In this document: positions 15,194 to 24,438 of the stretch, one piece after another
How the letters are laid out: each line of letters starts with the position of its first letter
Position numbering within the stretch: the stretch's first letter is position 1
Origin: Candidatus Westeberhardia cardiocondylae
Lineage (GTDB): Bacteria; Pseudomonadota; Gammaproteobacteria; Enterobacterales; Enterobacteriaceae
DNA: 64,000 bases
Reading direction: 5' to 3'
NCBI GenBank assembly: GCA_024648785.1
Contig: JABYQB010000004.1
Location: 1-64,000 of the forward strand
The notes under the pieces: generated by a model
The model's database searches: none
What the model saw: only the letters and a program-made list of their open reading frames with translations
What the model was told of the DNA's origin: nothing
Position numbers and translations under genes: made by a program

Positions 15194-15820
15194 ATGCAGA
15201 AAAATAATGTAATTTTTTTATTAAAAGAATTAATACAACTAGGAATTCATGATTCAAAAATATTAAAAGCAATACAAAATATACCAAGGGAACATTTTGT
15301 TGAAAAATCACTAAAATATAAATCATACGAAAATGTAGCATTACCAATTAAATTTGGTCAATTTATATCACAACCATATATTGTAGCAAAAATGACAGAA
15401 TTGTTATTATTAAAACCAAATTCAAAAGTATTAGAAATAGGAACAGGATCTGGATATCAAACAGCAATATTATCATATTTAGCACAACATATATTTTCTA
15501 TAGAAAGAATTAAAGAACTACAATTACAAGCAAAAAAAAAACTAAAAAAATTAAAATTATATAATATATCTATAAAATACGGAGATGGAAATCAAGGATG
15601 GTCAACAGAAAAACCATTTGATGCAATAATTATTACAGCTGCATCAAAAAAAATACCAAAAAAACTAATACAACAACTACACAATAAACATGGAATATTA
15701 GTTGCACCAATTGGTGAAAAAAATAAACAATTTTTAACAAGAATATTTCGTACAGGAAAAACATTTAAAACAGAAACTATAGAACAGGTAAACTTTGTAC
15801 AATTAATAGATGGAGTATGA
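15194..15820 (+). CDS. pcm: Protein-L-isoaspartate O-methyltransferase
   Basis: ORF 208 aa, same length as E. coli Pcm; ISQPYIVAKMTELL, VLEIGTGSGYQTAIL, PFDAIIITAA. Confidence 0.95.
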   Translation: MQKNNVIFLLKELIQLGIHDSKILKAIQNIPREHFVEKSLKYKSYENVALPIKFGQFISQPYIVAKMTELLLLKPNSKVLEIGTGSGYQTAILSYLAQHIFSIERIKELQLQAKKKLKKLKLYNISIKYGDGNQGWSTEKPFDAIIITAASKKIPKKLIQQLHNKHGILVAPIGEKNKQFLTRIFRTGKTFKTETIEQVNFVQLIDGV

Positions 15821-23117: not shown

Positions 23118-23135
23118 ATAGTAAATAACATAAAA

Positions 23136-24438
23136 ATGAAAAATATGAAAATAAAATCAAAAAAAAAACAATTCCAAACATTAAATCTTCTTTACACGAT
23201 TGGCTACAATATATAAATAATATACATAACAAAAAAAATCATTTGAATTTAAAAAAAATTAAACATATTGCAAAAATATTACAATTATTAAACCCAGCTC
23301 CATATATGATAGTTATAGGTGGTACTAATGGTAAAGGCACAACATGTCATTTATTAGAAAAAATATTAATATACAATAATATACGTGTTGGTATATACAG
23401 TTCTCCACATATATTATACTATACTGAAAGGGTTCGAATACAAGGAAAAACATTAACAGAACATGAACATGTTAATGCAATGAATATTATCGAAAACAAA
23501 AGAAAAAATATACCTTTAAATTACTTTGAATATAGTACACTAGTTGCATTACAATTATTCAAAAATTCTAAAATAGAAGTAGGTATTTTAGAAGTAGGAA
23601 TAGGTGGAAAATTAGATGCCACAAACATTATAGATTCTGACATTTCAGCTATAACTAATATAGCATTAGATCATACAAAAATATTAGGAAACAATAGAAA
23701 TAATATTGCAAAAGAAAAATCTGGAATTTTTCGTCTCAATAAACCAGCCATTTTTGGAGAAAATAATATTCCAAAAACTTTAAAAAAAGAAGCAAAAAAA
23801 TTGGATCAATACTATATGCAAAAAATATACATTGGTGGATGAAAAAAGAAAACAAAACAACATGGTCATGGTGGAATAAATCATATATTTTAAAATCACT
23901 TCCTATACCAAAAATACCAATAAATAACGCAGCAACAGCACTTGCCATAATACAATCATATACCATTTAAAATATCAAAAAATACAATTTACAAAGCAAT
24001 ACAAAATACAAAACTACCAGGAAGATTTCAATGTATTAAAAAAAACCATTAATAATATTAGATGTAGCACATAATCCTCATGCTTCTTCATATCTTGCAA
24101 AATATATTAAAAATATTAACAAAAATAATAAAATTATAACAATAGTTGGAATGTTATCAGACAAAAATATTCCAAAAACTTTAAAACCATTACATAAAAT
24201 TACAAAAAAATGGTATTGTGTATCATTAAAACATGAAAAACAAGGAAGAAATGCAAATCAAATAGCAAAACATATAAAAAATAAAAAGACAGAAAAATGT
24301 GAAAATGTCTTATATGCATTAAAAAAAGCAATAAAAACATCATCTAAAAACGATTGCATTTTAATATTTGGATCATTTCATACAATTTCACCAATAATGA
24401 AATCATTAAAAATAAATACAAATCCAATAATAAGATAA
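23136..24438 (+). pseudogene. folC: Dihydrofolate synthase/folylpolyglutamate synthase with four frame disruptions (probable pseudogene or slippage-dependent gene)
   Basis: GGTNGKGTTCHLLEKILIYNNIRVGIYSSPH, YTERVRIQGKTL, NAATALAII, LPGRFQCI, DVAHNPHASSYL, GMLSDKNIPKTL, FGSFHTISP lie in order but in different frames; follows accD as in E. coli. Confidence 0.93.

Follow-up and report, generated by a model that had tools for sequence, protein, structure and literature searches.

Genes in the AT-rich, reduced genomes of insect endosymbionts are known to erode after indels arise in their poly(A) tracts (described in PMC3017870, after Moran et al. 2009), while in Blochmannia and Buchnera conserved genes with a homopolymer break are described in the same source as being corrected by slippage (Tamas et al. 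2008; Wernegreen et al. 2010). Candidatus Westeberhardia cardiocondylae is a symbiont of Cardiocondyla ants in which tyrosine supply is the retained use of the shikimate pathway, and Westeberhardia of other Cardiocondyla species have genomes of 0.45-0.53 Mb with 22-26% GC, obtained with HiSeq 4000 and SPAdes (PMC9381600). The genome analysed here (G000; 447,238 bases in six contigs) agrees with these strains in size and GC. Its window, the stretch of 64,000 nucleotides under study, has a GC content of 22.6% and carries an accD with 80% identity to its counterpart in Candidatus Westeberhardia cardiocondylae LN774881 (G001), whose gene order is colinear with the window across nearly its full span. 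G002, a third genome of the genus, is colinear with it throughout the compared part. A pcm-like gene (protein-L-isoaspartate methyltransferase; 15194-15820, 208 aa) is open in the window and in G002, whereas the colinear part of LN774881 yielded no match to it. We describe here a folC gene with several frame breaks, which is very probably a very young pseudogene that closes the loss of the folate pathway, that is, ordinary genome shrinkage caught early.

Frame structure of the folC locus

A reading made from the sequence only had traced FolC homology in order over three frames of this locus, and both profile search and frame-aware alignment bear this out. The TIGR01499 profile detects full-length homology divided between two frames, with 212.9 bits over 23252-24070 (family positions 2-280; cut-off 162.65 bits) and 81.7 bits over 23773-24402 (positions 181-398), and stops interrupt each of the two readings. 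Frame-aware alignment to the intact 424-aa FolC of LN774881 gives 63% identity over 418 aa with three frame changes, which are inactivating lesions relative to this orthologue. The GTNGKGT P-loop and the EKxGIF and LDxAHNPHA motifs are all recovered once the segments are translated in their respective frames. No single frame is open from a start codon through the gene, given three certain breaks and the absence of an in-frame start.

Table 1. Features of the folC locus, in window coordinates
Feature	Positions	Strand	Remarks
folC (dihydrofolate/folylpolyglutamate synthase), very probably a pseudogene	23136..24438	+	between accD and pta; broken at three or four sites
Start region: out-of-frame ATG 23136, then A10 23159-23168	23136..23168	+	-1 break or lost start
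A7 tract, -1 break	23794..23800	+	frame-aware alignment; supersedes earlier A6 23820-23825
+1 break without homopolymer, sequence CAATCATATACC	23956..23961 (approx.)	+	frame-aware alignment
A8 tract, -1 break	24038..24045	+	frame-aware alignment
Longest open piece, 199 aa, internal TTG start, P-loop GGTNGKGTT	23243..23842	+	open-reading-frame list, alignment
Open C-terminal piece, 95 aa	24151..24438	+	52% identity to FolC of LN774881

The sequence-only reading had counted four disruptions, three of them single-A deficits. Three breaks are certain in the assembled sequence, two of them at A tracts; the fourth defect reflects a frameshift or else the loss of the start codon. The opposite-sign shift without a homopolymer of that earlier reading was recovered by the alignment as a +1, and its last break, at the A8 tract, as a -1. 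Its second break had been misplaced: the true site lies about 25 bases upstream of the proposed A6, at the A7 tract, because the frame that follows it gives KIGSILYAKNIHWW, which corresponds to KIGALLYVKNKNWW in W. cardiocondylae, and the LDQYYMQK of the earlier reading is out of frame. Scored against the sister with BLOSUM62, KKIGSILYAKNIHWWMKK reaches 63 and KKLDQYYMQKNIHWWMKK, the version with the break at A6, reaches 34.

The start of the gene is harder to place. Between the TAA at 23126 and the TTG at 23243 the main frame holds no ATG, GTG or TTG, and this TTG falls within a conserved region of FolC. The context upstream of the ATG at 23136, TAACATAAA, is common to the folC start of LN774881, and this ATG reaches the main frame only via a -1 shift at A10. 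Such a shift, proposed earlier as the first break, and a lost start codon explain the fourth defect equally well.

The two open pieces listed in Table 1 could in principle be separate working proteins of a split FolC. Hardly any weight can be given to this idea, since the 199-aa piece stops well within the N-terminal domain, ends in residues that are out of frame and has no proper start, and since the middle segment offers no separate open piece of at least 60 aa.

Folate metabolism and the age of the breaks

A search of the G000 genome gave no match for folP, folE, folK, a DHFR-type folA or a chorismate-binding (pabB-type) gene. The pathway context of folC is thus lost (five genes or types not found), and folC is the sole searched folate-synthesis gene still recognisable in this genome. 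Whether the chorismate/folate route still works, a question left by the sequence-only reading, can therefore be answered: apparently it does not. In LN774881, folC, folP, folK and folA are present, and folE and a chorismate-binding (pabB-type) gene were not found; in G002, none of folC, folP, folK, folA, folE and the chorismate-binding enzyme was found. The accD-pta interval of G002 is a non-coding spacer of about 500 bases, and a search for a folC remnant between these two genes found none; comparison of intergenic regions with the sisters by tblastx returned mainly short AT-rich noise. None of the three genomes seems to channel shikimate-pathway chorismate into folate.

G000, G001 and G002 all carry the folate-using genes fmt, glyA and folD, with no stop inside these genes, and thyA was not found in any of the three genomes. 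Given that fmt, glyA and folD are intact without the synthesis genes, reduced folate is presumably supplied by the host, the ant. With reduced folate drawn from the ant, FolC would have lost its synthetic role as dihydrofolate synthase and could at most have polyglutamylated imported folate, so that it would have become dispensable. Replication slippage in A-rich tracts, together with one further indel, would then have broken folC recently, before other decay built up, and G002 would represent the end point, with folC gone. Because G002 has no folC, the lineage can live without it. What counts against a young pseudogene is the case of G031, a more distant member of the family with a reduced genome: it has an open FolC (G031:C1:171657-172802), although a search of it found no folP, folE, folK or DHFR-type folA, indicating that FolC alone can pay. 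This suggests that G031 retains its FolC solely to salvage folate. FolC on its own may thus serve in salvage, which may be why the folC of the window lingered.

The protein sequence still encoded at the locus bears on the age of the breaks. There are no stop codons in the four homologous folC segments, which are 57-72% identical to LN774881. In a three-way comparison with G008, 32 FolC changes are private to the window lineage and 40 to LN774881, compared with 171 and 165, respectively, in 11 other genes. The resulting ratio of ratios is 0.77 (95% interval 0.46-1.29), so that no excess of amino-acid change and no sign of relaxed constraint is detected, with an upper bound of 1.29-fold. Of 95 sites that are constant across 25 FolCs of relatives, 15 are changed in the FolC of the window, and 13, 11 and 13 are changed in the intact FolCs of LN774881, G008 and G016. 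Since the decoded FolC shows neither acceleration nor a stop codon, its inactivation is taken to be recent, and the recent decay proposed earlier is thereby supported. On the assumption, made for dating, that the usual rate of folC evolution is 5-20% of the neutral one, the neutral period would span roughly 1.5-7% of the lineage since the split from LN774881. An unaccelerated FolC would date the loss as recent or else leave room for function, and two further points weigh against a young pseudogene: a still-functional gene would equally show no relaxed constraint, and several indels without excess substitutions require homopolymer indels to occur at a far higher rate than substitutions.

Sequencing error and recoding as less likely alternatives

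The same fully constrained appearance would be expected if folC were intact and its indels were artefacts of sequencing or assembly. The breaks are those of the assembled sequence, and two or three of them sit in A tracts, the usual site of such errors. We nevertheless consider an artefact unlikely. The 44 other window genes that were checked all have open frames, and their 214 A/T tracts of at least seven bases, up to 13 bases long and thus in part longer than those of folC, are without exception unbroken; folC has eight such tracts, two or three of which lie at breaks. The hypergeometric probability that all broken tracts fall in folC is 3e-5 for three tracts and 1e-3 for two. With 0 of 214 tracts broken outside folC, the breaks are unlikely to stem from random miscalling of homopolymers, and such miscalling would leave the +1 break, which lies outside any homopolymer, without an explanation. 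In addition, HiSeq 4000 and SPAdes (PMC9381600), from which this assembly presumably originates, seldom miscall tracts of 7-8 bases.

A second alternative is that FolC is still made, the A tracts serving as sites of transcriptional slippage or ribosomal frameshifting. Slippage had been entertained in the sequence-only reading, and such a rescue has a precedent in Blochmannia and Buchnera (PMC3017870). If FolC were still made, the enzyme would be retained for the polyglutamylation of host-derived folate. The unrelaxed FolC sequence would fit such a rescue, and the -1 breaks do lie within in-phase A_AAA_AAN heptamers. However, intact genes of the window contain about eight of these heptamers in every 1.3 kb, so that finding them in folC says little; as evidence for programmed frameshifting they were dropped. 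In Buchnera, transcript insertions climb exponentially with run length, and transcript deletions amount to 1.75e-5 per nucleotide, with frame-restoring events not seen (PMC5574713); selection against slippery runs is evident in many bacteria from nine bases (PMC1088944). The breaks of folC are not confined to long homopolymers, the tracts being only seven and eight A and one break having none. A single message would need three or four corrections, including a +1 without a homopolymer, so that the yield would be negligible. Nor is the frameshift common to related species, as the gene is intact in LN774881 and lost in G002, which manages without it. Because at least three independent corrections would be required, two on short tracts and one without a homopolymer, slippage rescue is improbable, and a working FolC produced by multi-site recoding and kept for polyglutamylating host folate would be very improbable indeed. 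A very young pseudogene thus remains the preferred explanation.

Besides the window, our survey of frame breaks covered 100 kb of contig C2 in G000. Among the G001 genes checked over these 100 kb, rodA (mrdB) is the clearest folC-like case. In G000 (G000:C2:73986-75057; L143) it is frame-broken at a T10 tract (74379-74388) and again somewhere in 74490-74559; in G002 (G002:C1 about 234200-235300; L156) it is frame-broken at or beside the T10 at 234785-234794, which corresponds to the T10 at 74550-74559 of G000 and to that at 264321-264330 of the intact rodA of W. cardiocondylae. Apart from the breaks, rodA is conserved (67% identity), and the adjoining mrdA-like gene is open. As a candidate for a frameshift that is tolerated or corrected by slippage, rodA is stronger than folC. 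In rng/cafA-like (ribonuclease G) and rpsA-like (ribosomal protein S1) genes on the same contig (G000:C2 about 81600-83200 and 92350-94050; L143, L144), similarity to the sister fades near the 3' ends, which suggests C-terminal truncation.

The locus among known systems

The locus presents one gene apparently caught at the moment of its loss, and two relatives can be set beside it, W. cardiocondylae with folC intact and another that no longer has it. It suggests an order in which folate dependence arose in the Cardiocondyla symbiosis: the synthesis genes went first and folC last, and the folate-using enzymes stay. The process itself is already known; what is new is the folC instance, its placement between intact and deleted relatives and the corrected map of its breaks. 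No report of this instance was found in the main texts of the papers searched.

One close counterpart is the folC of W. cardiocondylae LN774881, which occupies the orthologous accD-pta locus at 63% identity; it has an intact frame in a genome retaining folP, folK and folA, whereas the folC of the window is broken. The erosion of Moran et al. (2009), as far as PMC3017870 describes it, is similar to the present case in its AT-rich, reduced genome, in its single-base losses from A tracts and in a gene heading for loss. It differs in that folC has several breaks, an unaccelerated sequence and one break outside any homopolymer. The slippage-corrected genes of Blochmannia and Buchnera share with folC their homopolymer breaks, the conservation of the gene and an insect symbiont, of ants or aphids, as its carrier. 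However, those genes, in the account given in PMC3017870, have a single break in one homopolymer, whereas folC is broken at three or four sites, which lie on short tracts or, in one case, outside any homopolymer.
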